Assembly: GCF_009882945.1 (NCBI RefSeq)
Contig: NZ_WTUY01000001.1
Coordinates: forward strand, 266-64,265
Length of the DNA: 64,000 nt
Source: Alcanivorax sp. DP30
Lineage (GTDB): Bacteria > Pseudomonadota > Gammaproteobacteria > Pseudomonadales > Alcanivoracaceae
Reading direction: 5' to 3'
The position numbers and the translations under genes are program-made. Below the pieces are notes generated by a model. The model made no database searches. It had not been told where the DNA came from and worked only from the letters and a program-made list of their open reading frames with translations. Below, in pieces: positions 68 through 20,185 of this stretch. Each line of letters begins with the position of its first letter. The first letter of the stretch is position 1.

Positions 68-691
68 ATGGCTCATCAAGGGTTAGACAAAGTGTTACAG
101 CGTCAGCAGCCGGTCAGTTGATGCTAATCCCGGCCCCCTCCTTCCTCTGCCAGTTCGGCTTCTCGCTGAAACCACCTTGCGGCGAAAACCCGTAACGGAC
201 AATCACGACAAACTATGCCGACCCGACGGGAGCCTGACAGCCTCAAGGCTGAACTTTGGGTGCGCGTGCATTTAACGTCAGGGGTTTGGTATTGCCCTGC
301 GTGCATGCTCACGGCAAAGAGGCAAAAGAGCGGCTTTGTTCTGATCCGCTAAAGCTGTTTTCCGGTCCCAGTCCGGGGGCATCCAGGCTTATGCATTTGT
401 TAATAGTTTTTGGCTATCCTCAGTGACGGAATGGAATTCTGGCTTTGTGACGCAGTTTGCGAAATCGGGTCAGTAAAATTGGGAAATCAAAAAAAATTAG
501 CCATTAGTGTTATCTCTGCGTCTGATTTTCTTGTCTCTAGGGCTTAATTCTCGAAAAAACTGCTAGTAAGACTGTTCCCTTTTAGTGTTACCCCTCTACA
601 CATTCTTTCGCGCCCGGCGTTAGATGGGCTTTCAAGGATGGAGTTGCTTCTCGGTCATTGCGAAATGGCCGCTAACTACTGGGGAAAGGGA
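68..691. other. Long intergenic leader upstream of algD
   Basis: About 620 bases without a credible gene separate the tuf terminator from algD. In Pseudomonas the algD promoter region is also long and carries far-upstream regulator sites. No good AlgU (GAACTT-N16/17-TCTGA), sigma-54 or sigma-70 promoter could be picked out by eye. The stretch 480-560 is AT-rich. A 62-codon open frame on the - strand (124-312) has no ribosome-binding site and was not accepted. Confidence 0.5.
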
Positions 692-2005: not shown

Positions 2006-2010
2006 CGGCC

Positions 2011-3477: not shown

Positions 3478-3533
3478 TAACGCCGCGTCTGCAAGTTTGG
3501 GGATAAGCAGGAGTGGCCACGGAGGGAAGGTTC

Positions 3534-4670
3534 ATGGAAGAGAAAAAGGTTCGTCAGGTACACGAGTCCCAGGAAGAACGTCAACATGTACGCGTCAGGT
3601 TGCAGGGAAGCCTGCGGCTGCGCATGCAGAGCCCGGTGAAGGGGATTTTTTCACTGGAGGACGTGTCGCTGGGTGGATTGTCGTTTGTTGCCGGCCAAGT
3701 CAATCTGACACCGGGCACGCTCTGCCACGGTGAAATTGTTTTTCGCCTGGGGCGGGCAAACCTGTCCATGCCGGTGAGCTTCAAGGTGATCTACCAGGAA
3801 GACAGTAATCAGCGGGTGGGTGGGCAGTACACTGTGATTGACCAGCAGAATACGGATCTGCTGAGGCTTTTGATCAGCAATTATCTGGCCGGTGAGCTCA
3901 CCGAGCTGGATGACGTGATTGATAACATGAAGCGGGAAAACTATGTGGCCACCCGCAAAGGCAAGCAAAAGCCAACGGCAAGAGGCTGGCTCGACCGGGC
4001 CCGGGCACTGTTCGGCAGCTTGCTGTTTTTCATTGTGGGCTTGCTGGCGTTTCTGGTGGTTGCCTACAAGCTTTATCAGCATGCCTTCCTGACACGGGCG
4101 GATGATGCCTGGGTCTCCTTGCCGGGCAAGACAGTGATGATGCCGGAGAATGGCTATGTGCAGCTTCTGCTGCCGGAAGGGGCGACCCAGGTAGAGCGTG
4201 GCCAGCCGTTACTCACCGTTTCGTCCCGACTGGTGGCGCGCCTGAATAATGGTGTGTTGCTCGATAACCTGGATCCGAAACAAGTGAGGGCACTGGTCGA
4301 TGCGGCGGTTTTTGAGGTCACATTGAATAGCCCCTGTGACTGTGACATTGCCGATTTGATGGTACGCGATGGCGAGTTCGTCCAGGAGGATACGGCTTTG
4401 ATTCGGCTGGTTGATCCCAGCGGTCCGAACCTGGTGACCGCATTGTTTGAAGGTAATGCAGATTCACTGGGTGCGGCAGTTGGCGATGCCGTTACGGTTC
4501 GCTTTATGGATGGGCACACCGATGCGGGGGCGACGATTAGCCAATTGGTTCGCGATGAGGAAAGCGGTTTGCTGCGCATGCAGATCGTGACCCAGCGAGA
4601 ACTGTCCACGTCGGATCAGAATCAGCCTGTCAGTGTCACGGTGCATCCGGCATGGTTTCCCGTCTTGTAA
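3534..4670 (+). CDS. alg44: Alginate polymerisation co-factor Alg44 (PilZ, c-di-GMP receptor)
   Basis: 378 residues. N-terminal PilZ domain with the c-di-GMP motifs RQHVR (RxxxR) and DVSLGG ([D/N]xSxxG) spaced as in the family. One transmembrane segment near residues 160-185 (LLFFIVGLLAFLVVAY) is followed by a periplasmic HlyD-like part. In Pseudomonas this protein activates Alg8 when c-di-GMP binds and contacts the periplasmic complex. ATG 3534 follows GGAGGGAAGG, a strong Shine-Dalgarno sequence; a GTG at 3513 is less likely. Its 3' end overlaps algK by 19 bases. Confidence 0.94.
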   Translation: MEEKKVRQVHESQEERQHVRVRLQGSLRLRMQSPVKGIFSLEDVSLGGLSFVAGQVNLTPGTLCHGEIVFRLGRANLSMPVSFKVIYQEDSNQRVGGQYTVIDQQNTDLLRLLISNYLAGELTELDDVIDNMKRENYVATRKGKQKPTARGWLDRARALFGSLLFFIVGLLAFLVVAYKLYQHAFLTRADDAWVSLPGKTVMMPENGYVQLLLPEGATQVERGQPLLTVSSRLVARLNNGVLLDNLDPKQVRALVDAAVFEVTLNSPCDCDIADLMVRDGEFVQEDTALIRLVDPSGPNLVTALFEGNADSLGAAVGDAVTVRFMDGHTDAGATISQLVRDEESGLLRMQIVTQRELSTSDQNQPVSVTVHPAWFPVL

Positions 4671-5998
4671 TCCTTTGCCTGCTGGGAGGCTTGTCGGCCT
4701 GTCAGATGCCGGCGGATACCAACACCGCCCGGTATATGCTGGCCCAGGGCAATACCATGCAGGCACGGGAGCAGCTTCGTGAGCTGGCAGAAGCCGGAGA
4801 TTCGGCCGCACAGGTGGAATATGGCAAGTTACTGGCTGCGCAACAGGGCGCCGATCCGGCGGAAGCGATGGTCTGGTATCAACGTGCCTGGCAACAGCAT
4901 GATTACCGTGCAGGGCCTGCCAGTTTGCGCCTCTTCAAGCGTTATCAAGGAAGCATGGCGTTCGGGGAAGACCGGGCCAGAGAGCTGCTTGTGCCGCTTC
5001 GTCCACGGGAAAGTGAAGAGGATTTGCGGTTGGCACTCGATGTAGTTGCACTCTATCCCGGTGCGGCAACGGATCAGCAGTGGCAAGAATGGCTTCGTTT
5101 GTATCGCCGCAGCTGTGTGATGGAGTGTTATTTCGAAACCTATGCCGGTCGCTATGCTCAACACAAAGGGGATATTGCGCAGGCGGAAGCGTTTTATGCC
5201 CAGGCCCTGCATCGTGATCCAAGGGCCGTGGAATACCTGCAGGACATGCATTGGCAGAATGGGACGCCAGAAAGCTTTGTCGCCCTGATGCAGGACCTTG
5301 AAGGGGATGTGTCTCTGGACGGGGCGTATTGTCTGCGTGTGGCCACCCTGATCAAGGCAAATGCTACCACCGCAGAGCATGATCCTTCAGTGATGCGATG
5401 GCTGCAGCGAGCGGCGGATAACGGAGAGCCGCAGGCCTTGTCAGAGCAGCTGCGCTACATGCTGTCCTGGCCAAATTTTTACTCCCATCGTGATTTTAAC
5501 TCCAAGGTGGCGGAACTGATGCCGCTGGACCCGGCGGTGGCAACGTTTTTTCGTGCCCAGGGGGACATGCAGTGGGCCTGGTATGCGTTGAGGCCGGAAC
5601 GTGCCAGAGACGATCTGGAAAAGCTGGTGAGTCAGGGAATGGCACAGGCGCTGATGCCGCTGGGCACACTGTATCAAAGTGGGTTTCTGGGGGAGGCGGA
5701 CATGGAACGTGCGGTGATGTACTACACGCGGGCGGCGGAAGCCGGGATGGCGGAGGGAGATGCGTCGTTATCGTCCTTGTATGCCACCGGGAGGGGGATA
5801 ATGCGTGATCCGATTCGCGCATATGCGCACAAGGAGGCCAGCAAGGTATTGCTGCCCCGCACTGCTCGCCAGGAGAGCGATGAGAGGCTGATATTACCGG
5901 AAAGTCTGCAGCCCGCTGCAGACCAGGCCGCGGAAAAACTGATCGCACAACGTCGTCGTTGGCTAGAGGAGCAGTTCCATGTCGCGATTACGTATTAG
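4652..5998 (+). CDS. algK: Alginate export lipoprotein AlgK (Sel1/TPR repeats)
   Basis: 448 residues. The signal peptide ends in the lipobox LSAC (Cys 17), so the mature protein is an outer-membrane lipoprotein. The rest is alpha-helical Sel1/TPR-like repeats, for example A-x-G-x(7)-LG-x-LY near residues 330-350 and 365-385. AlgK scaffolds the periplasmic complex and helps place the AlgE porin. It starts inside the end of alg44 and overlaps algE by 20 bases, indicating translational coupling. Confidence 0.92.
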   Translation: MVSRLVILCLLGGLSACQMPADTNTARYMLAQGNTMQAREQLRELAEAGDSAAQVEYGKLLAAQQGADPAEAMVWYQRAWQQHDYRAGPASLRLFKRYQGSMAFGEDRARELLVPLRPRESEEDLRLALDVVALYPGAATDQQWQEWLRLYRRSCVMECYFETYAGRYAQHKGDIAQAEAFYAQALHRDPRAVEYLQDMHWQNGTPESFVALMQDLEGDVSLDGAYCLRVATLIKANATTAEHDPSVMRWLQRAADNGEPQALSEQLRYMLSWPNFYSHRDFNSKVAELMPLDPAVATFFRAQGDMQWAWYALRPERARDDLEKLVSQGMAQALMPLGTLYQSGFLGEADMERAVMYYTRAAEAGMAEGDASLSSLYATGRGIMRDPIRAYAHKEASKVLLPRTARQESDERLILPESLQPAADQAAEKLIAQRRRWLEEQFHVAITY

Positions 5999-7358
5999 TG
6001 CTGTTGCCATTCTGTCAGTGCTGCCCATCATGAGCGCCTTCGCCGATCCCCTGCCGCGTCACACCTATGATCAGCGGCTGTATTTCAGTGCCGGTGAGGC
6101 TCCGGAGTACGCCAAGTTATTCCTCGATGATGAAACCGAGCCCAATGGTTTGATTCGCTATGAGCCCCGTTACTACTGGCGCAGTGGTGATACCGAGTGG
6201 CATCGCTGGGACGCTCAGGTACGCGCCAAGCTGCTGTTGGCGGTGGGGAGGCCAAGTAGCCTGCAGACGGACGATAACGGTCGTATCCGTGAGGATGAAC
6301 ATTATGCGGAACTGCGGGATATCTGGGTGCGTCGCCGGATGTTGTTTGGTTCGCCCTCCCTGTCCCTGGCGCTGGGTCGCCAATCCTACAAGGACGTGGA
6401 GGGGGTGATCTGGGATCTGCCGCTGGAAAGTCTCAATCTGGATTATCAGTCCAGCCGTTGGCGGGCGCATCTGGTTGCCGGCCAGCAGATGACAACCTTC
6501 CGATCCGATGATTCAGACCTGGATCCGCGAGACGAGGATATTTTCAGGGTGCTGGCGGGTGTGGGAAAGCAATGGATGCCGGGCCACTGGTGGGAACTGC
6601 AGCTGCATTATCAGGATGATCGTTCCGGAAACCAGATGAAACGGCTGGAAGATCTGTTGGATGTGCGCGATTTCACCGGCTACTGGGCCGGGGTCCGGTT
6701 GCACGGCGAGAGCGGGCATGCTCCGGCAATCGGGTATACGGTCAACGGATTATTCCAGGAAGGTGATCTGCAGCGCTATATGGTCGATGGCCAGGGAAGT
6801 CGTCTGGAAAGCGAAGACCGGGTGCAGGGCTATTTTATCCAAAGTGAGTTGTATGGCCGCATCGACAGCTTGAGTTGGCGTCCGGCTCTGGGGTTGCGGG
6901 CAGGCACCACGGATGAGCCGGACTATGCGGTAAACGACAGTTATTTCCAGAGCAGGGTGCAAAGTAACCGACGTCCTGGCGTAGCGGATCTTTCCACCGG
7001 AGTGCTGGGAGATTTGCTCGACTATGAAATGAAGAATCTGTCCTTTGCTGCCGTCTGGTACCGGCAGCAGTTATGGCCCCGTGCCGAGCTGGAAGTGCTG
7101 GCTGGCTCGCTGCAGCGGTTGAATACCTCGATCAGGGTCAACAGTCCGATCAGCAATCCATTGGTGGATGGCGAATCGCATCTTGGCAATGTGGTGAATG
7201 TGGCGTTGGGGTGGCAATCGTTTCCGCTGGCGCTGTCCGAGCGGCGACAGATGCAGGTGTCGGCAAGGCTAAGCTATTCGGCGTTTGAAATGGGCGATGC
7301 CTATCAGCGGGCGGAGCAGATTCACCAGATCCTGTTTGTTATCGCAGGGAGGTGGTGA
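5979..7358 (+). CDS. algE: Outer-membrane alginate porin AlgE
   Basis: 459 residues (Pseudomonas AlgE about 490). Signal peptide with likely cleavage after SAFA (about residue 22). The mature part alternates polar and hydrophobic residues with many Tyr/Trp/Arg, typical of the 18-strand barrel through which alginate leaves the cell. Examples are the conserved region RYEPRYYW and LxLALGRQSYKDVEGVIWD. The last residue is Trp rather than the usual Phe. It follows algK with a 20-base overlap, as in Pseudomonas. Confidence 0.93.
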   Translation: MSRLRISAVAILSVLPIMSAFADPLPRHTYDQRLYFSAGEAPEYAKLFLDDETEPNGLIRYEPRYYWRSGDTEWHRWDAQVRAKLLLAVGRPSSLQTDDNGRIREDEHYAELRDIWVRRRMLFGSPSLSLALGRQSYKDVEGVIWDLPLESLNLDYQSSRWRAHLVAGQQMTTFRSDDSDLDPRDEDIFRVLAGVGKQWMPGHWWELQLHYQDDRSGNQMKRLEDLLDVRDFTGYWAGVRLHGESGHAPAIGYTVNGLFQEGDLQRYMVDGQGSRLESEDRVQGYFIQSELYGRIDSLSWRPALGLRAGTTDEPDYAVNDSYFQSRVQSNRRPGVADLSTGVLGDLLDYEMKNLSFAAVWYRQQLWPRAELEVLAGSLQRLNTSIRVNSPISNPLVDGESHLGNVVNVALGWQSFPLALSERRQMQVSARLSYSAFEMGDAYQRAEQIHQILFVIAGRW

Positions 7359-7360
7359 CC

Positions 7361-8779
7361 ATGGTGTTTTCATCCAACCTTTTTGTTTTTCTTTTTCTGC
7401 CGCTCTTCCTGGCCGCGTATTACCTGACGCCAACCCGGTGGCGTAACTGGACGATCCTGATTGGCAGTTATCTGTTCTATGCCTGGTGGCGCCCGGACTT
7501 CCTGCTGTTGTTTGTGGCTATTACCCTCTGGAATTATCTCTTTGCTCTGGCGATCCAGAAGTACCGGTCCCATCCGCGCTGTTTTTATTGGCTGGTGGTC
7601 GGAGTACTGGGGGATTTGGCGGCGCTAGGTTACTTCAAGTACGCCAACTTTGGAGTGGAAAGCATCAGTGCCCTGATGGTGTCTGTGGGGCTGAATCCAT
7701 TCTTTCTGGAAAAGATTATTCTGCCCCTGGGTATTTCATTTTATACCTTCCAGGCGTTGGCTTACCTGGTGGATGTATATCGAGGGGATGCCCGGCCCAC
7801 ACGCAGTTTTATCAATTTTGCGGCCTTTATCTCGTTTTTCCCGCAACTGATCGCCGGCCCTATTCTCCGCTACCGCAACCTTGAACGTCAGTTCGAACAG
7901 CGCACCCACTCCATGGAGTTGTTTTCGCTGGGGGCAAGTCGTTTTCTGCTGGGGTTTATCAAGAAGGTGCTGATCGCAGACAGTATTGCGCCGGTAGCGG
8001 CCTACCTGATGGCCACACCTGAACCAGGATTGATTGATGGCGTGTTTGCGGTAGTGATTTCGACGCTGCAACTGTATTTCGATTTTTCCGGTTACTCCGA
8101 CATGGCCATTGGGCTGGGCATGATGATGGGGTTCAAGTTTCAGGAAAATTTCAATCAGCCCTTTGTCTGTCAGAGTGTCACGGAGTTCTGGCAGCGCTGG
8201 CATATCACCTTGTCGCAATGGTTGCGGGACTACTTGTACCGGCCGTTGAAGAAAACGTTGGGCTGGCCGGTATCGGCGGCCACATTTACCACTTTGACGC
8301 TGGCAGGCCTGTGGCATGGTGCGGATCTAGCGTTCGTGCTGTGGGGGGCCGCCCTGGGGGGCATGATGGTGCTGGAACGGCGTCTCGGCTGGGCGACTAC
8401 CATGTCGACGCCCTATTCCCTGTGGAAGAACTACCGCACCCAAGCCTTTCTGTGGTTCATCTGGCCGCTGTTCCTGGTAGGGAATGTGGATGGCGCCTGG
8501 AACATCATGTCCGGTCTGCTGGGCCTGAACGGTTGGGGTAGCCTGGATAACCTGATGTTGTGGGTTTCTCCCGTGACCTTGCTGTTCTGCCTCGTTGCCC
8601 TGTGCTGGGATAGGGCCAGTGCGTATTACAACAAGCGTTTCTATCTGGGGCTGGACAATAGCAACATTTTCCAGAGCGTGAGTGGTTGGCGTATACCCGT
8701 ATTGTGGTGCGGTTTTTTCCTGGCGGTGACGCGGCTATCCGCTGAGTCCTTTTCACCTTTTCTGTATTTTCAGTTTTAA
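7361..8779 (+). CDS. algI: Alginate O-acetyltransferase AlgI (MBOAT family)
   Basis: 472 residues, polytopic inner-membrane protein beginning MVFSSNLFVFLFLPLF, nearly the Pseudomonas N-terminus. The MBOAT histidine lies in GLWHGADLAFVLWG. AlgI carries acetyl groups across the membrane to AlgJ and AlgX for O-acetylation of mannuronate. ATG 7361 follows GGGAGGTGG. Unlike Pseudomonas, where algG-algX-algL come between algE and algI, algI here follows algE directly with a three-base gap. Confidence 0.95.
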   Translation: MVFSSNLFVFLFLPLFLAAYYLTPTRWRNWTILIGSYLFYAWWRPDFLLLFVAITLWNYLFALAIQKYRSHPRCFYWLVVGVLGDLAALGYFKYANFGVESISALMVSVGLNPFFLEKIILPLGISFYTFQALAYLVDVYRGDARPTRSFINFAAFISFFPQLIAGPILRYRNLERQFEQRTHSMELFSLGASRFLLGFIKKVLIADSIAPVAAYLMATPEPGLIDGVFAVVISTLQLYFDFSGYSDMAIGLGMMMGFKFQENFNQPFVCQSVTEFWQRWHITLSQWLRDYLYRPLKKTLGWPVSAATFTTLTLAGLWHGADLAFVLWGAALGGMMVLERRLGWATTMSTPYSLWKNYRTQAFLWFIWPLFLVGNVDGAWNIMSGLLGLNGWGSLDNLMLWVSPVTLLFCLVALCWDRASAYYNKRFYLGLDNSNIFQSVSGWRIPVLWCGFFLAVTRLSAESFSPFLYFQF

Positions 8780-8791
8780 CAGGAGGTTGCC

Positions 8792-9931
8792 ATGATCCCG
8801 ATGAAACAGGCATCTCTGCTGAATGGCTGGCTTTTTCTGGCTGTCATCTTCGCCGGTTTTTTATCGTTGCTGTATCCGGTGGGGCATTTCTTTGTCACCG
8901 AGCCTGCCGCCTGGCAGCAGTTTCGCCAAGGCGAGCTGGTGCGCAAGCTTGAACGGCGAGTGGATGAAGAGTTTGTTCTCAGAAAGCCGTCCATAGCTTT
9001 CTGGGCGGATACCAGTTTTCTGCTGTTCAAGGCGGGGCGGCCTGGCGTGTTGGTTGGAGAGAAAGACTGGCTATTCAGCCGGGAAGAATATTATTACGAC
9101 AGCCGCAGCGAGCGTTTTCTGGCAGATAACCTTGCTCAGCTGGCTGCGACCGTTTGCGTGCTGGAAGGGTTAGGGAAGCAGGTGCTGCTGGTGCCGGTGC
9201 CTGCAAAGCGACGGCTTTATGCGCAATGGAGTGCGCGACCGGTCTCTACTGGAATGGATGCCCTGTACCAGCGCATTACCGGCGCGCTCAGCGATTCGCA
9301 TATTGCATGGGTCGATACTCTTGGGTTGATGCAACGTGCGGCGTCGCAGGGCGCGGTCTTCATGCGTACAGATACCCATTGGAGTCCCCTTGGTGCTCAG
9401 GTAGTGGCTGCCGGCGTTGCCTTAAATCTTTCCTTGCCCGGTTCCCATCACTATGAAACCCGTGAACTTCGGGTTGAACCCTATGAGGGTGATCTGTTGC
9501 GTTATCTGCCCACCAGTGAGGGGGTCGGGCCTGTGCGTAAGGAGCCTTTGATGCGCTATGAGACGGCAGCGGTGGATCAGATGCTGGATGCGCAAGCCCT
9601 GCTGGGAGATGACCTGCCGCCTGTGGCTCTGGTAGGCACGAGCTACAGTGCTATGGATGAGTGGCATTTTTCGGGCTTTCTCAAGCAGCAGCTCAGTGAA
9701 GATGTGCTGGTTTACGCATTGGAGGCGCAGGGACCGTTTGCCGCTATGCGTGAGTTTCTCGATGGACCTGCTGCCAGGGATGAGCGGGTGAGGTATGTGC
9801 TCTGGGAAGTACCAGAACGGGCACTGATTCAATCAATGGAACCGATTGTGAGGGAAGAACATCATGCGTGCATGGATCGCGATACTGGTCATGCTGCTGA
9901 GCTTGCCGGTGTGGGCAGCCCAGGACGGTAA
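8792..9931 (+). CDS. algJ: Alginate O-acetyltransferase AlgJ (SGNH-like)
   Basis: 379 residues. An N-terminal signal anchor (residues about 12-30) places it on the periplasmic face. The SGNH-type catalytic residues are visible: Asp194 and His196 in MRTDTHWSP and Ser284 in VGTSYSAMD. It takes acetyl groups delivered by AlgI. The last 22 codons overlap the start of algF by 68 bases in a different frame, an unusually long overlap; the C-terminal tail HHACMDRDTGH… does not look like family sequence. RBS AGGAGG is well placed before ATG 8792. Confidence 0.92.
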   Translation: MIPMKQASLLNGWLFLAVIFAGFLSLLYPVGHFFVTEPAAWQQFRQGELVRKLERRVDEEFVLRKPSIAFWADTSFLLFKAGRPGVLVGEKDWLFSREEYYYDSRSERFLADNLAQLAATVCVLEGLGKQVLLVPVPAKRRLYAQWSARPVSTGMDALYQRITGALSDSHIAWVDTLGLMQRAASQGAVFMRTDTHWSPLGAQVVAAGVALNLSLPGSHHYETRELRVEPYEGDLLRYLPTSEGVGPVRKEPLMRYETAAVDQMLDAQALLGDDLPPVALVGTSYSAMDEWHFSGFLKQQLSEDVLVYALEAQGPFAAMREFLDGPAARDERVRYVLWEVPERALIQSMEPIVREEHHACMDRDTGHAAELAGVGSPGR

Positions 9932-10490
9932 CGAGGGCCTCTATGAAATGGCCGCGCCACCGGATTCGGCATTTATCCGGGTGGTCAACATTACGGACGG
10001 GCAGGTGGCTGTGGAGATGGATGACTGGCGGCAGTCGCTTTCTCCGCGCCAGGCCGGTGACTATCTGTACCGCCCTGTGGGCAAGGCGCAGATAAGCGTT
10101 GCGGGCAAGCCCTTTGCGTTCGAGTTTGAGGCGCGTTCGGTGCAAACGCTGGTGTTTGATGGGGCGTCATTGGTCAAACATGAGGACATCTACTTCAACA
10201 ACCGGCTGAAAGCCTTGCTGGTGATGTACAACCTGTCGGACCAGTCTGCCAGCCTGCAGACCCTCAACGGGGCAGTGAATGTGATTGGTCCGTTGCTGGC
10301 GGGCAATAGTGGTGAGCGTGAGATCAACGGCGTCAAGGTGGCGCTGAAAGTGGCGCTGGACAGTGGCTCCGAATTGCCGCTGGAAGAGGTGGTTTTGCAG
10401 CGTGGCCGCATCTATACCGTGCTTGTGACACCGGGAAGCGGGGGTGTGCAGGCCCACCTGGAGGAAAGCCATGTGGCAACGACCCCTTGA
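9864..10490 (+). CDS. algF: Alginate acetylation adaptor AlgF
   Basis: 208 residues (Pseudomonas AlgF 216). Signal peptide MRAWIAILVMLLSLPVWA, then a periplasmic beta-rich protein beginning with GLYEMAAPPDSAFIRVVN, a well-kept AlgF stretch. AlgF is needed for acetylation and is thought to link AlgJ and AlgX. AGGGAAG precedes ATG 9864 inside algJ. Its 3' end overlaps algX by 20 bases. Confidence 0.93.
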   Translation: MRAWIAILVMLLSLPVWAAQDGNEGLYEMAAPPDSAFIRVVNITDGQVAVEMDDWRQSLSPRQAGDYLYRPVGKAQISVAGKPFAFEFEARSVQTLVFDGASLVKHEDIYFNNRLKALLVMYNLSDQSASLQTLNGAVNVIGPLLAGNSGEREINGVKVALKVALDSGSELPLEEVVLQRGRIYTVLVTPGSGGVQAHLEESHVATTP

Positions 10491-11934
10491 TCAGCTTTGT
10501 TGTCTGGCGGCCTGCCTGTTACTGGTGGTGGCTAGTGTCGCGTCCGCTGCTGGTCTGACGGAAACGGCGGAGGCGAGCGGCGACAATTCTCAGGAAGAGC
10601 CGCGGGCACTGAAAGGTGCTTTCCTGCAGCCTCCCTTTACCTGTCCCGCGCTCACCGATCCGGCCACCTACGCGGAGGGAACCATGAGTGCCATGCGGCA
10701 ATTGGTTGCCGGCAAGCCCTTCTGGTTTTTTCGCACAGAGGTCGATCTGCAGGAGTCCTTTCCGATGGATGAGGCGGCCCAGCAGGCATTTGCTGAACTG
10801 GTAGACCGGCTTGCCCAACGCGGTGTCAGCCTGGTTGTCATGCTACAGCCAACCCGTGGATTGATGCATGCGCAAGAATTGGAGCCGCCCTGGAGTGCGC
10901 GGTACTCGCTGGCGGCAGCACGCCGTTCATTTCTCCACAAGGCTCAGTTGTTGCGGGCCTTGGGTGCCAGCGTTGCGGATATGGAGCCAGTGTTGCGGGG
11001 CGAGCATGAACAGGAATATTTTTTTCGCCGTGACCACCACTGGACGCCCTATGGTGCCCAGGTCAGCGCCCGGCAGGTGGCAGATGTGATGCTGGCGGAC
11101 CCTGGCATCGATGAAATCACACAAGTCAGATATCAGACTCAACCGGATATTCTGTTGCGAAAGATGGGCACCTTGAATGCAGCAGTTGCCATGGTGTGTG
11201 GCAACTCCTACGGTTTTCAGTGGGTCAGGGGGAGCATTACCGTCCCGGAACAGGGCACCGATAGCGCCGATGCCCTGTTTGGTGATGTGGCCGCCCCTGC
11301 CATCGCCCTGGTCGGCACCAGTAACTCGGACATTCGGGATGACCGTTACAAGAACTACAATTTCCATGGTTTTCTGCAGCAATACCTGAGCCGCGATGTG
11401 GTGAACTTTGCCATGACCGGTGGTGGGGCCACTGGATCACTGCAGGATATCCTGTTGTCGGAGGCGTTTCAGGATGGGCAGTTTCGTTATCTGATTTGGG
11501 AATTGCCGGTGAGCTACCCGCTCGCAGATCAGGAAACATGGCGTCAATTGTTACCCGCGGCTTCTGGTGGCTGCACCAATCGTGCCTTGTTGGCAAGCCA
11601 GACCACCACGGTGCCGGTATCGGCAGTGGATGATCGTATCGAAGTCCTTGCCAATGCCGGTGAGCGCCGCCGGTTGACGGCAGGCAAGTCGCATCTTTTG
11701 CTGGAGATGAACTACTCGGACAGCAACTTCAAGGATTTCTATGTGTTGGCTTATTACGATGACGGCCAGCGTGAAAAGATTCGTATTCGTCGTCCGGCCA
11801 GGCTGGACACGGGGCGCTTTCTGCTGCGTCTGGATCCGCCGAGCCGGCATGGAAATTTGTTGTCTGTGTTGCTGGAATTCGAACAGCCCCAGCCGGTGGC
11901 CATGACGGTGGAGACATCCTTGTGCGATTACTGA
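10471..11934 (+). CDS. algX: Alginate acetyltransferase AlgX (SGNH domain plus CBM)
   Basis: 487 residues. Signal peptide to about residue 28, an SGNH hydrolase-like domain with Asp188-His190 in RRDHHWTPYGAQ and Ser284 in VGTSNSD, then a beta-sandwich carbohydrate-binding region from about residue 350. AlgX acetylates polymannuronate in the periplasm and is part of the export complex. ATG 10471 follows GGAGGAAA; a GTG at 10444 lies further inside algF and was not used. It resembles AlgJ but is longer and has the C-terminal binding domain. Confidence 0.93.
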   Translation: MWQRPLDQLCCLAACLLLVVASVASAAGLTETAEASGDNSQEEPRALKGAFLQPPFTCPALTDPATYAEGTMSAMRQLVAGKPFWFFRTEVDLQESFPMDEAAQQAFAELVDRLAQRGVSLVVMLQPTRGLMHAQELEPPWSARYSLAAARRSFLHKAQLLRALGASVADMEPVLRGEHEQEYFFRRDHHWTPYGAQVSARQVADVMLADPGIDEITQVRYQTQPDILLRKMGTLNAAVAMVCGNSYGFQWVRGSITVPEQGTDSADALFGDVAAPAIALVGTSNSDIRDDRYKNYNFHGFLQQYLSRDVVNFAMTGGGATGSLQDILLSEAFQDGQFRYLIWELPVSYPLADQETWRQLLPAASGGCTNRALLASQTTTVPVSAVDDRIEVLANAGERRRLTAGKSHLLLEMNYSDSNFKDFYVLAYYDDGQREKIRIRRPARLDTGRFLLRLDPPSRHGNLLSVLLEFEQPQPVAMTVETSLCDY

Positions 11935-12995
11935 GCGGGGTGTTGTTGGGATTGGTGGCGGGTTGCTCCCAGGCCGCCTTGATTCCGTTGTTTGATGCTC
12001 AGCGTCTGCCGACTGCGGAGCCGGACGCCACGGCGTTGCGGCGCTGTCAGGCTATGGCGTCGGGTTACCCTCCCTACGCCGGTGCACTGGCGATGGGTAG
12101 CAAATATGATCAGTCCCGATCCAGCAAGGATGAACTGGATGAGAGCGCTGCCAGCCAGTATCAGCAGCAGGTAGAAGGCATCTATCAGTATCTGGCCTTC
12201 CTGGGCCAGATAGGCGAATACATGCGCAGTGAGCGACCTGCCATACGCTCCGCGGCCCAGGTGTGTTTTAACGAGGCGTTGGCGCCATGGGCTGAATCCA
12301 TGGCGTTGACGCAGCCCGGTGCCAGTAAGCAGGGAGAGGCGGTGCGCAAATGGTTCCTGTCTGCGCTGGCCACTAACATGATGAAGGCGCGAGCCCTGAC
12401 AGCCTGGGAGATAAATGACGGCCAGCGCCGTTGGCTCGCTGCCCTGGCAGACCGGGTACAGGCCCATGCGTCGCCACGGCGCCAACGGATGGATTTGTAC
12501 AACAACCATGATTACTGGTCGTCGTGGGCGGTGATGGCATCGGCATTGGTGCTGGATGATCCGGCGCGTTTGTCTTGGGCCGAGCGGGGATACTGGCTGG
12601 CTATCAGTCAGATTACCCCTGGCAATAAGGGCGGGGTTCTGCTGCCGCTGGAAGCGGCCAGGGGAAAGCGGGCGGAAGAGTATCATGCTTTTGCATTGAC
12701 ACCGCTGGTGCTGATGGCTGAGGCGGGTACCCGTAACGGTTTGCCTCTCTATGAAGGACGAGGCGAGCAGCTGCATGCGCTTGCAGAGCAGGTTGTGCAT
12801 TTCTGGCGGAAGGATGGACAGGGGGTTCGCTTCAAGCAGAAGCAGATTGTGATTGATGATCACAAAATGGCCTGGTGGCCAGTCTATGCCCACCGGTTTG
12901 CCGACCGTCTGCCTCTTCCCGAGGGAGGGGCAGACCGTTTCGGGTCCCGCTTTACCGGAGGTTCGCTAGCGGGATTGTGGGTAGAGCTTCGGTAA
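11922..12995 (+). CDS. algL: Periplasmic alginate lyase AlgL (PL5 family)
   Basis: 357 residues. Beta-eliminating lyase that clears stray alginate from the periplasm and belongs to the export complex. The family signature NNHDYW (residues 194-199, catalytic His196), Lys61 in GSKYD, and Arg250/Tyr254 in GKRAEEYH match the Pseudomonas active site. The start is GTG 11922, overlapping the algX stop by 13 bases. The N-terminal LVAGC would fit a lipobox, so the protein may be lipid-anchored. The 3' end overlaps the convergent algG-like gene by 44 bases. Confidence 0.93.
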   Translation: MRLLSGVLLGLVAGCSQAALIPLFDAQRLPTAEPDATALRRCQAMASGYPPYAGALAMGSKYDQSRSSKDELDESAASQYQQQVEGIYQYLAFLGQIGEYMRSERPAIRSAAQVCFNEALAPWAESMALTQPGASKQGEAVRKWFLSALATNMMKARALTAWEINDGQRRWLAALADRVQAHASPRRQRMDLYNNHDYWSSWAVMASALVLDDPARLSWAERGYWLAISQITPGNKGGVLLPLEAARGKRAEEYHAFALTPLVLMAEAGTRNGLPLYEGRGEQLHALAEQVVHFWRKDGQGVRFKQKQIVIDDHKMAWWPVYAHRFADRLPLPEGGADRFGSRFTGGSLAGLWVELR

Positions 12996-14241
12996 ATTCG
13001 ACGGCTACCGTTTGTCCTCGAAGCAACGGCGGCAGCAATTCCGCTTCTCTGGCGGCCAGATTGCCGGCCAGATATTTCCCCTGATTACTGTTGTGGCGGA
13101 GGCTGATGCCGTTCAGAAGCAACTCGCCTTCCCCGTTCGTCTGCAGTGCTGCCAGTCGGTTATGGTGCAGTCTGAGCTGGGAGAGGGTGGCGCTAATGCG
13201 TTGTGAGGACTGGATGGCAATGGCATAGCGCTGGTTGGTGGAGATGTCAGCCTGCTCGAGGGTGACTTCCATGCTGCCGTCCAGGCGCAACCCGTCGCTG
13301 CCATTGTCGCGGAGAACCAGTGCTTGCAGAGTCGTGGCTTGCTTTCCTCTTTCCGCCTTGATCTGGACACCATATTCAAGATTGTTGCTGCTCCGCAGCT
13401 GGCTGATCTGAACCGGGCCGGTGTGGTTCTCCAGCAACACGCCGCTGCCTTGATTGTCACCCACATCTATTTCTGACATGACCAGCGAGGCGCTGCCTTC
13501 GGCACGCAGGCCATGTCCTGAGGAGCGGTAGATCTGCAGCCTTTCAATGCGTGCCGGGCTGTTCTGCAGCACGACCCCCTGCTCCCGGCTGTCGGTGATA
13601 GACAGGTCATTGATTTGTACGCGGCTGCCAGGTTCCGCATCGACCCCGCGGTAAAGGTTCTGGAGTTGGTTGTTGGCAAGATACAGCTGCGCGGCCGCAG
13701 CACCGCTCTGGTAGCGATGACGTGCCACACTGATGCCGTTAGCGCGGTAGTCGGCGCGACCCAGCCCGTTCAGTGTGCTGTCCTGAATACGGGTGACGGA
13801 ACCGCCCCAGCCGTGAATAAAGCCGCTGTTCTGGTTGCCATTACTGGCTAGATGACTATTGGTGATGACCAGCTCACCGCGATTGATCAGGCAGCCGCCG
13901 TGACGTCCCTCAATAAACAGGTCGTCGTTTATCAGATTCAGCCGGGTGCCGGGGCCAATGACCAGGGGGTAGTGCAAGATCCAGCCCGATTCTGTGCGGC
14001 TCAGCGCATGGGAATCAAGCTGACCGGCCAATTTGGCAAGGTCGTAGTCGCCGCCATTGAGAACGATGGCTTGGGGATGGCCGCGCTGGTAACGGGCAAT
14101 CTGGCGGAACAGGCCGTTGGCCGCAAAGGTTTCGAGCGGCCAGTTGCTTGCCTCATTGGCATAAATCGGTGTCAGCCTGACACTGGCCAGGCCGGTCTGG
14201 CAAAACAGTGACAGTAGCAGAACGGCAAGGATCGCTTTCAT
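12952..14241 (-). CDS. algG: AlgG-like right-handed beta-helix protein lacking the DPHD epimerase motif
   Basis: 429 residues, shorter than Pseudomonas AlgG (about 540). Signal peptide ends near residue 19. The rest is parallel beta-helix repeats. The stretch FIHGWGGSVTRIQDSTLNGLG and following aligns with the AlgG core, and LYRGVDAEPGS lies where AlgG has VYGIDPHDRS. Thus the catalytic DPHD has become DAEP (residues 201-204, bases 13630-13641) and the catalytic His is absent. AlgG also protects the polymer as part of the export complex, so a structural role is still possible. Last gene of the - strand algA-algC-algG unit; its ATG directly follows the algC stop. Confidence 0.72.
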   Translation of the reverse strand: MKAILAVLLLSLFCQTGLASVRLTPIYANEASNWPLETFAANGLFRQIARYQRGHPQAIVLNGGDYDLAKLAGQLDSHALSRTESGWILHYPLVIGPGTRLNLINDDLFIEGRHGGCLINRGELVITNSHLASNGNQNSGFIHGWGGSVTRIQDSTLNGLGRADYRANGISVARHRYQSGAAAAQLYLANNQLQNLYRGVDAEPGSRVQINDLSITDSREQGVVLQNSPARIERLQIYRSSGHGLRAEGSASLVMSEIDVGDNQGSGVLLENHTGPVQISQLRSSNNLEYGVQIKAERGKQATTLQALVLRDNGSDGLRLDGSMEVTLEQADISTNQRYAIAIQSSQRISATLSQLRLHHNRLAALQTNGEGELLLNGISLRHNSNQGKYLAGNLAAREAELLPPLLRGQTVAVEFTEALPTIPLANLR

Positions 14242-15606
14242 TCATGCACTCCGCAGCAGGCTGCTCAGTTCCCGGGTCTTGCTGGCCAGCAGTTCCGGGT
14301 TTGAGCGGGTTTCCACATTCAGTCTGACCAGGGGTTCTGTATTGGAGGCTCGGACATTGAAGCGCCAATCACTGAACTCCAGGCTGACCCCGTCGGTGTC
14401 GTCCTGATTCAGAGCGATGTGAGCATACTGCTCGAGGATCCTGCGAAGCGCTTCGCCGCTATTGGGCACGGAAAAGTTGATCTCGCCGGATACCGGATAG
14501 CGTTGCGCCCGGTCGCGCACCAGCGCAGACAGGGTTTGGCCGGAGTCTGCAAGCAGCCGCGACAGATGCAGCCAGGGCAAAATGCCGGAATCACAGTAAT
14601 GAAAGTCGCGAAAATAGTGGTGACCACTCATTTCGCCTCCATAGAGGGCGTTGTCCTTGCGCATGCGCTCTTTAATGAACGCGTGGCCGGTCTTGCTCTG
14701 CATGGGCTGGCCGCCCGCTTCCAGCACGGTGTCGATGGTACTCCAGGTCAGTCGAGGGTCGTGAATAATGGTGCTGCCTGGCTGCCGGGCAAGCAGGGTG
14801 TTAGCGAGCAGGCCAATGATGTAATAGCTCTCGACAAAGTTGCCGTGCTCTTCAAAAAAGAAGCAGCGATCGAAATCACCGTCAAAGGCGACGCCCAGCT
14901 GGGCGCCATGTCGAATCACTGCCTGGCTGGTTTCCGCACGGTTTTCCGGCAACAGCGGGTTGGGGACACCGTTGGGGAAGGTGCCATCGGGGGTGTCATG
15001 GTAGCGGTGTAGCAAAGGTCTGATGCCGCGTTCATTAAGGGATTCAAGCAGGACGTCCAGTGCCGGGCCTATGGCGCCATTGCCTGCGTTGCTCACCATG
15101 CAGAAGCCATCCAGTGGCTGGCAATCCACCAGTCGCAGCAGATGCTGTATATAGGGACGCTTGTCGGTCTTGCGCTTGCGGCTGCCGCGCAAGCCTTTGT
15201 CTGGAAAGCGGTTGGCGAGCACCTGGTCGCGAATCTCGAACAGCCCGGTGTCGCCACTGATGGGGCGAGCGCCACGACGCACCAGCTTCATGCCGTTGTA
15301 GTCCGCCGGGTTATGACTGGCGGTGATCTGCACGCCGCCGTCGGCTTCGTGGTACACGGTGTTGAAATAGACCTCCTCGGTACCGCTCAGTCCGATATCA
15401 ACAACCTCTGCGCCACTACTCATGATGCCCTCGCAGAGCGCATTGCTCAGGGCGGGAGAACTCAGGCGCATGTCTGCACCAACAACAATGCGGCTGGCTT
15501 TCAGCCAGTCGGCCATGGCCCGGCCAATGCGCCAGGCCATGTCTTCGTCGAGCTCATCGCCAACCCTGCCGCGAATGTCGTAGGCTTTAAAACAGGACGC
15601 ACTCAT
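14242..15606 (-). CDS. algC: Phosphomannomutase AlgC/ManB
   Basis: 454 residues. Interconverts mannose 6-phosphate and mannose 1-phosphate. The phosphoserine loop TASHNP (Ser97), the metal-binding loop DGDFDR (242-247), the sugar-binding loop GEMSGHH (324-330) and the phosphate loop RASNTEP (419-425) are all intact. It overlaps algA by four bases (ATGA). In Pseudomonas aeruginosa algC lies far from the alginate operon; here it is inside the locus. The sequence also resembles enterobacterial ManB/CpsG. Confidence 0.93.
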   Translation of the reverse strand: MSASCFKAYDIRGRVGDELDEDMAWRIGRAMADWLKASRIVVGADMRLSSPALSNALCEGIMSSGAEVVDIGLSGTEEVYFNTVYHEADGGVQITASHNPADYNGMKLVRRGARPISGDTGLFEIRDQVLANRFPDKGLRGSRKRKTDKRPYIQHLLRLVDCQPLDGFCMVSNAGNGAIGPALDVLLESLNERGIRPLLHRYHDTPDGTFPNGVPNPLLPENRAETSQAVIRHGAQLGVAFDGDFDRCFFFEEHGNFVESYYIIGLLANTLLARQPGSTIIHDPRLTWSTIDTVLEAGGQPMQSKTGHAFIKERMRKDNALYGGEMSGHHYFRDFHYCDSGILPWLHLSRLLADSGQTLSALVRDRAQRYPVSGEINFSVPNSGEALRRILEQYAHIALNQDDTDGVSLEFSDWRFNVRASNTEPLVRLNVETRSNPELLASKTRELSSLLRSA

Positions 15607-17039
15607 GAGGGCAGTTGAGCCACTTTCTCGGCGGCGTCCTCACGGTGATAGCGGTCGCTGATCCGGATGATGTCGTCCTCGCCCAGATAGGTGCCGGACT
15701 GGACCTCGATCAGCTCCAGGGGAATGCGTCCGGGATTCTCCAGCGAGTGCACTTCGCCAATGGGAATAAAGGTGGATTGGTTCTCTGACACCAGAAAGGT
15801 GTTTGCGCCACAGGTCACCCGGGCGGTTCCGGAGACCACAATCCAGTGTTCGGCGCGGTGGTGGTGCATCTGGACAGACAGTTGTTCGCCGGGTTTCACG
15901 GTGATGTGTTTCACCTGATAGCGATTCCCCTTGTCGACCGAGTCGTACTTGCCCCAGGGGCGGTGTACCAGGCGATGGTTCTCGGTCTCCGGGCGTTTTC
16001 GAGACTTGAGGGTGTCGGTGATGCGCTTTACTTCCTGTGCCTGGCTCTTGTGGGCCACCAGAATGGCATCCGGGGTGTCGATGACCACAAGATCATCCAC
16101 GCCAAGCAGGGCAACCAGTCGCTCATCGCTCATGGCCAGATTGTTTCTGCTGTCATGGGCAATGATGTCGCCGCGTAAGTGGTTGCCATCGCCATCCTTG
16201 TCCAGATGGTCCCACAGGGATTGCCATGATCCCAGGTCGTTCCACAGCAGGCCGACCGGGACGACGGCTCCCATGGAGGTGTGCTCCATGACAGCGTAAT
16301 CAATGGACAGGTCTTCACAGCGGGCAAAGCTGGTTTCGTCCAGGCGGATAAAGTCCAGGTCTGCCTTGCCCTGTAAAAGTGAATGGGTGCAGTGGGCCAG
16401 CATCTGAGGATGGTATTCCCGTAATTCCTGCAGGTAGCGTTCCGCCCGGAACAGGAACATGCCACTGTTCCATAGATAGTTTCCGTCATCGAGGAACTGT
16501 TGGGCGGTGGCAGCGTCGGGTTTTTCCACAAAGCGTTCTATCAGGTGGTGTTTGCCGCGTGATTCGCCCATACATATATAGCCATAGCCAGTTTCCGGCT
16601 GGTTAGGTTGTATGCCGAAGGTGACTAGCAGGCCTGAGTCGGCGGCCTGGCTGCCAGCACTGATGGCCGCCTCCAATGCTTCGGGATTGCGGATGGCATG
16701 ATCTGCCGGGCAGACAAAGATGTTGGCGTTCGTGTCGCGCTGACGGGCCTGCAGTGCAGCCAGTGCGACTGCGGGTGCAGTGTTGCGGCCACAGGGCTCC
16801 AGCAGGATATCGGCTTCTATACCGATGTCATTCAACTGTTCCGCCACCAGAAAACGATGCTCCTGATTGCAGACCACTATAGGGCGAACAGCGCGCAAGT
16901 CCGCTGGCAGGCGCCGTAGTGTGGCCTGTAACATGCTGAATTCACCATTTAGGCGCAATAGCTGTTTAGGGTAATGAGCGCGAGACAGCGGCCACAGGCG
17001 CGAGCCATTGCCGCCGGCAATAATGACTGGAATAAGCAT
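15603..17039 (-). CDS. algA: Bifunctional phosphomannose isomerase/GDP-mannose pyrophosphorylase AlgA
   Basis: 478 residues (Pseudomonas AlgA 481). Makes mannose 6-phosphate from fructose 6-phosphate and GDP-mannose from mannose 1-phosphate plus GTP. The N-terminal nucleotidyltransferase has GGNGSRLWPLSR and PKQ, with FVEKP in the middle; the C-terminal cupin isomerase domain has RPWGKYDSVD and QMHHHRAEHW. ATG 17039 follows AAGGAAGGG and gives MLIPVIIAGG; an upstream in-frame start at 17096 lacks support. First gene of the - strand unit. Confidence 0.95.
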   Translation of the reverse strand: MLIPVIIAGGNGSRLWPLSRAHYPKQLLRLNGEFSMLQATLRRLPADLRAVRPIVVCNQEHRFLVAEQLNDIGIEADILLEPCGRNTAPAVALAALQARQRDTNANIFVCPADHAIRNPEALEAAISAGSQAADSGLLVTFGIQPNQPETGYGYICMGESRGKHHLIERFVEKPDAATAQQFLDDGNYLWNSGMFLFRAERYLQELREYHPQMLAHCTHSLLQGKADLDFIRLDETSFARCEDLSIDYAVMEHTSMGAVVPVGLLWNDLGSWQSLWDHLDKDGDGNHLRGDIIAHDSRNNLAMSDERLVALLGVDDLVVIDTPDAILVAHKSQAQEVKRITDTLKSRKRPETENHRLVHRPWGKYDSVDKGNRYQVKHITVKPGEQLSVQMHHHRAEHWIVVSGTARVTCGANTFLVSENQSTFIPIGEVHSLENPGRIPLELIEVQSGTYLGEDDIIRISDRYHREDAAEKVAQLPS

Positions 17040-17751
<712 letters not shown>

Positions 17752-17796: not shown

Positions 17797-18432
17797 ATGG
17801 CGATTGGTGTGATCGGTCGAAAATGTGGCATGACTCGCGTGTTCACTGAAGAAGGTGTCAGTGTTCCTGTGACCGTCATCGAGGTGACCCCGAATCGGGT
17901 TGCTCAGGTTAAGACCGAAGAATCAGATGGCTATCAGGCCGTGCAGGTAACGGTGGGTGAGCGCCGTGCCAGCCGTGTGACCAAGGCTCAGGCCGGTCAC
18001 TTTTCCAAGGCTGGTGTCGAAGCAGGTCGTGGCGTTTGGGAGTTTCGTGCTGAAGCAGGTGAGCTGCAGCCGGGTTCCGAAGTGACCGTTGAGGGTTTTG
18101 AGGCGGGTCAGATCATTGATGTGACCGGCACCTCCAAGGGTAAGGGTTTTGCTGGCGGCGTTAAGCGCTGGAACTTCAGCACCCAGGATATGACCCATGG
18201 TAACTCTCTGTCTCACCGTGCTCCGGGTTCCATTGGTCAGAACCAAACCCCGGGTCGCGTGTTCAAGGGCAAGAAGATGGCTGGCCATCTGGGTGCTGAA
18301 CGCGTGACTGTCCAGAATCTGGAAGTGGTGCGTGTAGACGCTGAGAAGAATCTGTTGCTGGTTAAAGGTGCGGTCCCCGGTGCTACCGGTGGTGATGTGA
18401 TCGTGCGTCTGGCAGTGAAGGCGAAGGCCTGA
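17797..18432 (+). CDS. rplC: 50S ribosomal protein L3
   Basis: 211 residues. An early 23S rRNA-binding protein next to the peptidyl transferase centre. Starts [16 protein letters not shown]. The central loop holds [22 protein letters not shown]-type sequence, where the Gln of GQNQ is the residue methylated in Escherichia coli L3. GAGG precedes the ATG. Second gene of the S10 operon, 45 bases after rpsJ. Confidence 0.97.
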
Positions 18433-18446
18433 AAGAGGAATAGAGG

Positions 18447-19049
18447 ATGAATCTCAATACTGCCTCTGGAGGTACCGTTAGCGTTTCCGAAGTCGCCTTC
18501 GGCAAAGACTTTAACGAGCCTCTGGTTCATCAGGTTGTAACTGCGTTTCTGGCTGGTGCCCGTCAGGGTTCCAAGGCTCAGAAAAACCGTTCCGATGTGA
18601 GTGGTGGTGGTCGCAAGCCGTGGCGTCAGAAGGGCACTGGTCGTGCTCGTGCTGGCACCATTCGCAGCCCGATCTGGCGTGGCGGCGGCAAGACTTTTGC
18701 TGCTACCAACCGTGACTTCTCTCAGAAGGTGAACCGCAAGATGTATCGTGGCGCGCTGCAGTGCATCGTGTCCGAGCTGGTTCGCCAGGAGCGCCTGGTT
18801 GTTGTTGACGAATTTACTGTCGATGCACCGAAAACCAAGGCTGTTGCGGCGAAGCTGAAAGATCTGCAGCTGAGCAATGTGCTGATCGTGACTGACAATC
18901 TGGATGAGAACCTGTTCCTGGGTTCCCGCAATCTGCCGAAGGTAGATGTGCGCGACGCACAAGGCGTTGATCCGGTCAGCCTGATCGCTTTTGAAAAGGT
19001 GCTGATCACCGTGCCGGCTCTGAAGAAACTTGAGGAGGCACTGGCATGA
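18447..19049 (+). CDS. rplD: 50S ribosomal protein L4
   Basis: 200 residues. Assembly protein whose loop lines the exit tunnel; in enterobacteria it also represses the S10 operon. The tunnel loop is recognisable as [19 protein letters not shown] followed by SPIWRGGG. The stop overlaps the start of rplW by four bases (ATGA), so the two are translationally coupled. Confidence 0.97.
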
Positions 19050-19342
19050 ATCAAGAGCGCATCCTGACTGTGCTGCGTGCACCGCACGTTTCTGAAAAAG
19101 CGACAGTTAATGCTGACGAAAATGGCACCTTTGTATTCAAAGTGGCCAAAGATGCGAACAAGCTGGAAATCAAAAAGGCTGTTGAGGCGCTTTTTGAGGT
19201 GAAGGTTAAGTCTGTTCGTACCGCCAACGTGAAAGGCAAGTCCAAATTCTTTGGTCGCGTCGCTGGCAAGCGCGCTGACTGGAAGAAGGCCTATGTTTCC
19301 CTTGTGGAAGGCCAGGACATTGACTTCCTCGGCGCAGAGTAA
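19046..19342 (+). CDS. rplW: 50S ribosomal protein L23
   Basis: 98 residues. Sits at the tunnel exit and serves as the docking point for trigger factor and SRP. Typical features are the N-terminal [16 protein letters not shown] and [17 protein letters not shown]. Starts within the rplD stop codon region and ends 18 bases before rplB. Confidence 0.97.
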
Positions 19343-19360
19343 GGAAGGGAGTAAGGAATA

Positions 19361-20185
19361 ATGGCGATTGTAAAGTGCAAGCCGACTTCTCCGGGCCGCC
19401 GCTTTGTAGTCAAGGTGGTCAACGAAGATCTGCACAAAGGTGCTCCCTACGCGCCTCTGGTAGAAGCCAAGAGCAAGAACGGCGGTCGTAACAACAATGG
19501 TCGAATCACTACCCGTCATAAAGGTGGTGGTCACAAGCAGAAGTACCGCGTTATCGACTTCCGTCGTAACAAGGACGGTATTCCTGGCGTTGTTGAGCGT
19601 CTGGAGTATGATCCGAACCGTTCTGCGCACATTGCCCTGGTCAAGTACCTGGATGGTGAGCGTCGTTACATTCTGGCTCCCAAGGGCCTGAAGGCAGAAG
19701 ATCGTATCCAGTCCGGCGAAGATGCGCCGATCAAGGTTGGAAACGCGCTGCCGCTGCGTAACATTCCGCTGGGTTCCACGGTTCATAACGTGGAAATGAA
19801 GCCTGGCAAGGGTGGCCAGATTGCTCGATCCGCCGGTACTTCCGTGCAGGTTCTGGCAAAAGATGGTCAGTACGCGACCCTGCGTCTCCGCTCCGGTGAG
19901 ATGCGCAAGGTTCACGCTGACTGCAAGGCGACCCTGGGTGAAGTATCCAACAGTGAGCATAGCTTGCGCTCACTGGGTAAAGCGGGCGCCACGCGCTGGC
20001 GGGGTGTACGTCCCACTGTACGTGGTGTGGCGATGAACCCGGTAGACCACCCTCATGGTGGTGGTGAAGGGCGTACTTCTGGTGGTCGTCATCCGGTTAC
20101 CCCTTGGGGTGTACCGACTAAGGGCCACAAGACCCGTACAAACAAGCGCACTACCAAGATGATTGTGCGCGACCGTCGTAAGTAA
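19361..20185 (+). CDS. rplB: 50S ribosomal protein L2
   Basis: 274 residues. One of the most conserved 50S proteins, needed for subunit joining and peptidyl transfer. The signature [13 protein letters not shown], containing the essential His, is present near residue 225, followed by [12 protein letters not shown] and a basic C-terminus. It lies in the standard place between rplW and rpsS. Confidence 0.98.

Follow-up and report, generated by a model that had tools for sequence, protein, structure and literature searches.

Gene content of the locus

The window, that is, the whole 64,000-nucleotide stretch of Alcanivorax sp. DP30 DNA analysed here, carries an alginate-type gene cluster with the following members (positions in the window, then strand).

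638 to 2005, +: algD-type GDP-mannose 6-dehydrogenase, 522.8 bits to 1MFZ
1996 to 3477, +: alg8-type polymerase (glycosyltransferase 2)
3513 to 4670, +: alg44-type PilZ/HlyD co-polymerase
4652 to 5998, +: algK-type protein; AlgK profile score 60 bits, under the cut-off of 700
5979 to 7358, +: algE-type export porin (Pfam Alginate_exp)
7352 to 8779, +: algI-type MBOAT acyltransferase
8792 to 9931, +: algJ-type protein (Pfam ALGX)
9864 to 10490, +: algF (Pfam AlgF, 244 bits)
10444 to 11934, +: algX-type acetyltransferase, 242.7 bits to AlgX 4KNC
11922 to 12995, +: algL-type lyase (Pfam Alginate_lyase; 88.5 bits to AlgL 4OZV)
12952 to 14241, -: AlgG-like (Epm-type) beta-helix protein of 429 aa, apparently without an epimerase active site (homology searches, predicted model)
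14242 to 15606, -: algC-type phosphomannomutase, 609.7 bits to the CpsG profile (cut-off 801)
15603 to 17096, -: algA-type mannose-1-phosphate guanylyltransferase/mannose-6-phosphate isomerase, TIGR01479 at 691 bits (cut-off 373)

The algD-type product matches the P. aeruginosa GDP-mannose dehydrogenase at 522.8 bits, the next solved enzyme being a UDP-glucose enzyme at 256.8 bits. The DHHWTP and GTSNS motifs are retained in AlgX (alignment to 4KNC), and NNHxYW is retained in AlgL (alignment to 4OZV). Based on the closeness of algD and the retained AlgX and AlgL motifs, the cluster should, by homology, make an acetylated mannuronate polymer.

The algL and AlgG-like genes are convergent, and their 3' ends overlap by 44 bases (12952-12995). 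The genes of ribosomal proteins L3, L4 and L2 (NCBIfam; 17797-20185) directly adjoin the cluster, an uncommon setting for an exopolysaccharide locus. Promoter-like sites occur at the chance level (2 versus 2.2 expected) and terminator-like sites number 11 versus 5.3 expected (sd 2.3); neither was used in the interpretation.

The AlgG-like protein and its predicted fold

The original prediction described a beta-helix protein beside the alginate cluster, encoded on the other strand and aligning to AlgG at FIHGWGGS; gene, strand, location and alignment are all correct. This motif belongs to the N-terminal part that the protein has in common with AlgG:

13798 to 13821, -: FIHGWGGS (aa 141-148)

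The shared features of this region include Q52, N120, W145 and glycines, and the N-terminus itself is signal-like and hydrophobic as judged by eye. Residue H55 (window 14077-14079) is invariant in 38 of 38 Epm-type proteins and occurs in just 3 of 17 AlgGs. With the starts as chosen, the protein (429 aa) is 75-132 residues shorter than the 17 canonical AlgGs (504-561 aa), a range that brackets the difference of about 110 residues given previously. Homology to AlgG is detected by phmmer against an AlgG structure (E 5.6e-6) and by profile-profile comparison, with probabilities of 99.5% for the Alcanivorax sequences alone and 99.9% for all relatives. The score against the NCBIfam AlgG model NF038177 is 44.5 bits, below the cut-off of 700, which is also missed by 5 of the 17 AlgGs counted as canonical by their DPHD (414-583 bits).

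Structure prediction followed by alignment with AlgG, one of the checks proposed for this gene, predicts the beta-helix of AlgG for most of the protein. The full-length model (29 alignment rows, 6 of them canonical AlgG) has a pLDDT of 90.6 and superposes on AlgG 4NK6 with a Z of 43.9 over 360 residues at 2.1 Å. Its four best structural matches are all AlgG (Z 43.7-43.9), and Foldseek gives an E of 1.2e-13. The second-best structural family is that of the AlgE-type epimerases (2PYG/2PYH, 5LW3), with Z values of 30.8 and 30.2, the 30.8 being that of AlgE4. The C-terminal half is less surely aligned to AlgG than the N-terminal half.

Position equivalent to the AlgG active site

The catalytic motif of AlgG is D317-P318-H319-D320, and two tetrapeptides of the AlgG-like protein come into question as its counterpart:

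13630 to 13641, -: DAEP (aa 201-204), which shares the coil phase of DPHD yet lies one coil ahead of it, outside the active-site position
13561 to 13572, -: VLQN (aa 224-227), predicted equivalent of D317-P318-H319-D320, the coil being supported by a structural fit

The numbering of D317 agrees with the title of PDB entry 4NK8; the numbers of H319, D320 and Arg345 are those given by the alignment, Arg345 being the residue that neutralises the carboxylate. The numbering of Tyr314 and the use of an arginine by AlgG follow passages of PMC4444821.

MAFFT, applied to 38 relatives and 17 AlgGs, places the segment LYRGVDAEPG on the WYGFYCYE coil of AlgG and VLQN one coil further, on DPHD. The AlgG segment YGIDPHDRS is thereby paired with QGVVLQNS in Alcanivorax and with, for example, YAIDISNS, YAIDVRDS or YGIDLGNS in relatives of other genera. 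A profile of all relatives compared with AlgG gives the identical pairing; an Alcanivorax-only profile gives the identical coil, with DPHD three residues further, on NSPA. Since the structural ranges of the whole-length model left the register unsettled, a fragment (aa 100-262) was modelled from 30 sequences, with no canonical AlgG among them, to a pLDDT of 95.9. All 163 of its 163 residues align with 4NK6 175..359 at 1.5 Å, and the residue offset rises along the fit from 75 to 97. Because no model residue is left unaligned, the offset can only grow, and D317 must pair with one of residues 220-242; placing VLQN on D317 needs an offset of 93, and placing DAEP there needs 116.

DAEP as the replacement of DPHD is ruled out by the MAFFT alignment, the profile alignments and the structural fit of the fragment. 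Local phmmer alignments do set GVDAEPGSR against GIDPHDRSH, but they are non-significant (i-Evalue 19-25), and we consider it extremely improbable that this register is the correct one. The original prediction, which had DAEP at 13630-13641 in place of DPHD, thus gave exact coordinates for the tetrapeptide but lay one helical coil early. On both alignment and model, the best equivalent of DPHD is predicted to be VLQN at 13561-13572.

Loss of the catalytic residues

Two further positions of the active site are assigned from the same alignment:

13579 to 13581, -: Q221, putative equivalent of AlgG Tyr314
13495 to 13497, -: G249, putative equivalent of AlgG Arg345 (Gly in 36 of 38 relatives, Asp in 2)

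Residues were counted in 55 rows, namely 38 relatives (9 Alcanivorax, 26 from genus g60 and 3 from other genera) and 17 canonical AlgGs. The histidine was previously said to be lost, and it is indeed absent, being present in 17/17 AlgGs versus 0/38 Epm-type relatives; the place of the loss, on the other hand, is VLQN and not DAEP. In Alcanivorax the former His319 position is variable (Gln in five, Ser in two, Tyr and Gly in one each). Similarly, Arg345 is found in 17/17 AlgGs versus 0/38 relatives. The Tyr314 column holds Gln in 9/9 Alcanivorax sequences, and Tyr in 28 of the 29 other Epm-type proteins with Phe in the remaining one. The Asp317 column holds Val in 9/9 Alcanivorax sequences, and Asp is retained in all 29 relatives outside that genus. 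In addition, the catalytic turn has two residues fewer than that of AlgG in 38/38 aligned relatives, and the Y-G-x-DPH motif of AlgE-type epimerases does not occur in the AlgG-like protein. Four of the 30 fetched g60 sequences were dropped from the alignment because their matches finished in a stop; these four have DVRDS at the site, in agreement with the counts.

Judged from these columns, the Alcanivorax protein has lost the equivalents of Tyr314, D317, H319 and Arg345. A recent mutation within Alcanivorax is ruled out: the site is degenerate in 38/38 relatives, and the proteins of the order fall into separate score groups (described below).

Distribution, selection and gene order

Of 17 Alcanivorax genomes, 10 carry the Alg8 of this cluster. 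Nine of these 10 also have the AlgG-like gene, and in the tenth the contig ends inside algL. A profile search of 390 genomes of the order returned nine matches at 545-654 bits and 17 canonical AlgGs at 131-183 bits, with none between. Two of the nine carriers, G220 and G398, also have a canonical AlgG, and the other seven do not. In genus g60, presumably Pseudomonas, the gene is present in 47 of 398 genomes; 17 of these matches were not fetched, one of them a partial, 81-residue piece (G756). A canonical AlgG was looked for in just two of the 47 g60 carriers, G220 and G398, and is present in both.

The AlgG-like gene is free of internal stops in 9/9 Alcanivorax. Its dN/dS is 0.13 in the closest pair (against L003, with dN 0.078 and dS 0.592) and 0.14, 0.18 and about 0.21-0.22 in the other three pairs computed; purifying selection therefore acts on the gene. 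These values also bear on whether it might be a functionless, decaying leftover, as the missing catalytic residues and the low NF038177 score could suggest. The intact frames, the dN/dS of 0.13-0.22 and the presence of the gene in every cluster whose stretch extends to that point all speak against decay, and there is next to no likelihood of it.

The gene order also differs from that of alg clusters. Clusters from other genera, 14 in all, show the order D-8-44-K-E-I-J-F-X-L-G over the part covered by the fetched stretches, and algA follows algD in three of them. The Alcanivorax G gene lies inverted behind algL, next to algC-algA. The canonical clusters compared, seven in number, place the AlgG gene after algE, or after algK where algE was not called. 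The ORF filter missed some cluster genes, and the algL genes of L100 and L101 were recovered by tblastn. Trees of AlgI and AlgX part the DPHD-less clusters from canonical alg (24 rows versus 7) with SH-aLRT values of 100 and 98, respectively; they are quick, midpoint-rooted trees, with a long-branch warning for AlgI and one very long AlgX row (L109). The AlgG-like proteins are a separate conserved lineage rather than decayed AlgGs, and the clusters that they belong to have a gene order of their own; the original prediction had not recognised this.

Groove residues and the possibility of another activity

Beyond the lost site, the groove retains conserved positions of its own, the clearest of which is the following:

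13504 to 13506, -: R246, a near-invariant Arg (37 of 38 relatives, the other having His), replacing the Ile of 17/17 AlgGs

AlgG has Tyr at position 295, a column occupied by Lys in 9/9 Alcanivorax and by Arg in 27 of the 29 other relatives. By these two positions the groove has not simply been abandoned, and the conservation of R246 and of Lys/Arg295 would fit the binding of an anionic chain in it; they could also be part of a new activity. In Alcanivorax, the polar or charged groove positions R246, E271, Y290, Q293, K295, D316 and R319 are invariant, and this could equally mean a new enzyme activity.

In 26 of 26 aligned g60 sequences (within L060-L089), the motif E-L-x-H lies one coil ahead of the lost DPHD, and such a conserved pair could be reactive.

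The active site may thus have been moved or rebuilt, so that the polymer is still modified (by epimerase, lyase or other action) through residues other than DPHD, for example those one coil earlier (D-A-E in Alcanivorax, E-L-x-H in g60) or the set R246/E271/K295/D316/R319. The coil phase of DAEP, the invariance of E203 in 9/9 Alcanivorax, the invariance of Glu and His in columns 201 and 205 of the 26 g60 sequences, and the invariant groove residues further along in Alcanivorax are all consistent with such a site. No family-wide set emerges, however: the E/H pair is missing from Alcanivorax and from the three other-genus members, one of the four dropped g60 rows (L076) has Arg for His, and the sole family-wide histidine found is H55, in the N-terminal part. 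A rebuilt site is accordingly unlikely, although it retains a real chance. Slightly less probable is the broader proposal that the Epm-type relatives of AlgG are a family that exchanged C5-epimerisation for another activity on polymannuronate, carried out in the same groove with the reactive residues possibly shifted by one coil.

Search for another epimerase

It had also been suggested that epimerisation might take place outside the cell through another enzyme, and extracellular epimerisation by AlgE-type enzymes does occur in Azotobacter, according to passages of PMC4444821. The genome (24 contigs, completeness 100) was searched accordingly. The AlgG profile matched only the AlgG-like gene. 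Two other beta-helix proteins, on contigs C20 and C21, scored above the Pfam cut-off; no DPH was seen in either, the second (L023, 1021 residues) having been read over 812 residues and covered by the DNA pattern for the rest. A DNA pattern for Y-G/A-x-DPH had no match in this genome. The pattern matched the AlgG gene in 8/8 AlgG genomes, and the reversed pattern, used as a control, gave chance matches too, up to 2 per strand, in that set of genomes. In other Alcanivorax genomes there were four matches, in frames of 44-77 codons. By AlgG, beta-helix and pectate-lyase profiles and by the DNA pattern, no plausible other epimerase was found in this genome. With no DPH-containing beta-helix protein found, it is very unlikely that guluronate is put in by another, extracellular AlgE-type epimerase, and the search leaves this part of the original prediction without a candidate.

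The two beta-helix proteins, L021 (C20:81437-81997) and L023 (C21:251203-251691), have lipoprotein-like N-termini (by eye) and a common YG[IL]YPVES coil.

Proposed role of the AlgG-like protein

Based on the results presented above, a scheme may be drawn from homology. AlgA, AlgC and AlgD would make GDP-mannuronate, which Alg8-Alg44 would polymerise; AlgI, AlgJ, AlgF and AlgX would acetylate the polymer; AlgL would clear stray chain from the periplasm, and AlgK-AlgE would let the polymer out. The AlgG-like protein probably uses Arg246 and Lys/Arg295 of its groove to bind the chain as it passes, and it may guide or protect the chain with no conversion of mannuronate to guluronate. Since the epimerase active site appears to be lost, the product of the cluster is predicted to be unepimerised, acetylated polymannuronate. 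A conserved non-catalytic relative of AlgG that guides or protects such a polymer is, in our judgement, the probable state of affairs. A retained non-catalytic protein with an unepimerised product had been one of the options offered at the outset, and it is the best supported by the fold kept, the histidine lost and the lack of a match in the epimerase search.

Work on AlgG itself offers a partial parallel. According to the title of Gimmestad et al. 2003, polymer formation needs the AlgG protein and not its epimerase activity, and mutants without AlgK, AlgX or AlgG yield unsaturated oligomers, the expected product of AlgL (passages of PMC4444821). On the other hand, in P. aeruginosa AlgK was not pulled down by AlgG, in a blot that according to its legend was not repeated (passages of PMC9734138). 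This negative pull-down leaves the place in an export complex unsettled even for AlgG, and it counts against a role as a scaffold within such a complex.

Polymannuronate as a natural product

A 2015 review states that AlgG is encoded by every alginate-producing bacterium and that a natural producer of mannuronan had yet to be identified (passages of PMC4444821). A 1996 report that P. corrugata alginate is polymannuronic acid (cited in passages of PMC5890197) and a title (Lim et al. 2014, cited in PMC5851621) that presents P. alkylphenolia as a platform for poly-beta-D-mannuronates stand against the latter statement. For Alcanivorax, no polymer chemistry was found in open-licence papers, nor, among open-licence PMC papers, was any report found of a missing active site in the AlgG-like protein of an epm cluster. 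In Alcanivorax borkumensis SK2, the smooth S type has more polysaccharide and a higher activity of the algA promoter (passages of PMC6440734).

Clusters of the Epm type would give a genetic reason for polymannuronate products. They extend the list of candidate producers to oil degraders of the sea and to roughly one in eight of the sampled g60 genomes, and they offer a natural test of whether the need for AlgG is structural rather than enzymatic. Gelling with the calcium of seawater should likewise differ for a polymannuronate that lacks guluronate blocks.

Comparison with known systems

The Alcanivorax cluster can be likened to the epm cluster of Pseudomonas alkylphenolia as described, and its G gene is inverted beside algC-algA. 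The P. alkylphenolia cluster reportedly has 11 genes, including epmG, and makes a substituted polymannuronic acid, and homologous clusters are said to occur in Alcanivorax and Marinobacter. On this description, the present cluster is probably a member of the epm kind. The epm cluster (Lee et al. 2014) is termed alginate-like in passages of PMC5890197.

The AlgE-type enzymes (2PYG/2PYH, 5LW3) share the beta-helix fold, but they are secreted and modular, whereas the AlgG-like protein is a single-domain protein without DPH, encoded in a polymer cluster. With AlgG (4NK6, NF038177) it has in common the right-handed beta-helix, the N-terminal region and the setting in an alginate-type cluster. Unlike AlgG, it lacks DPHD and Arg345 and has a catalytic turn two residues shorter, and its gene closes the cluster behind algL instead of following algE or algK.
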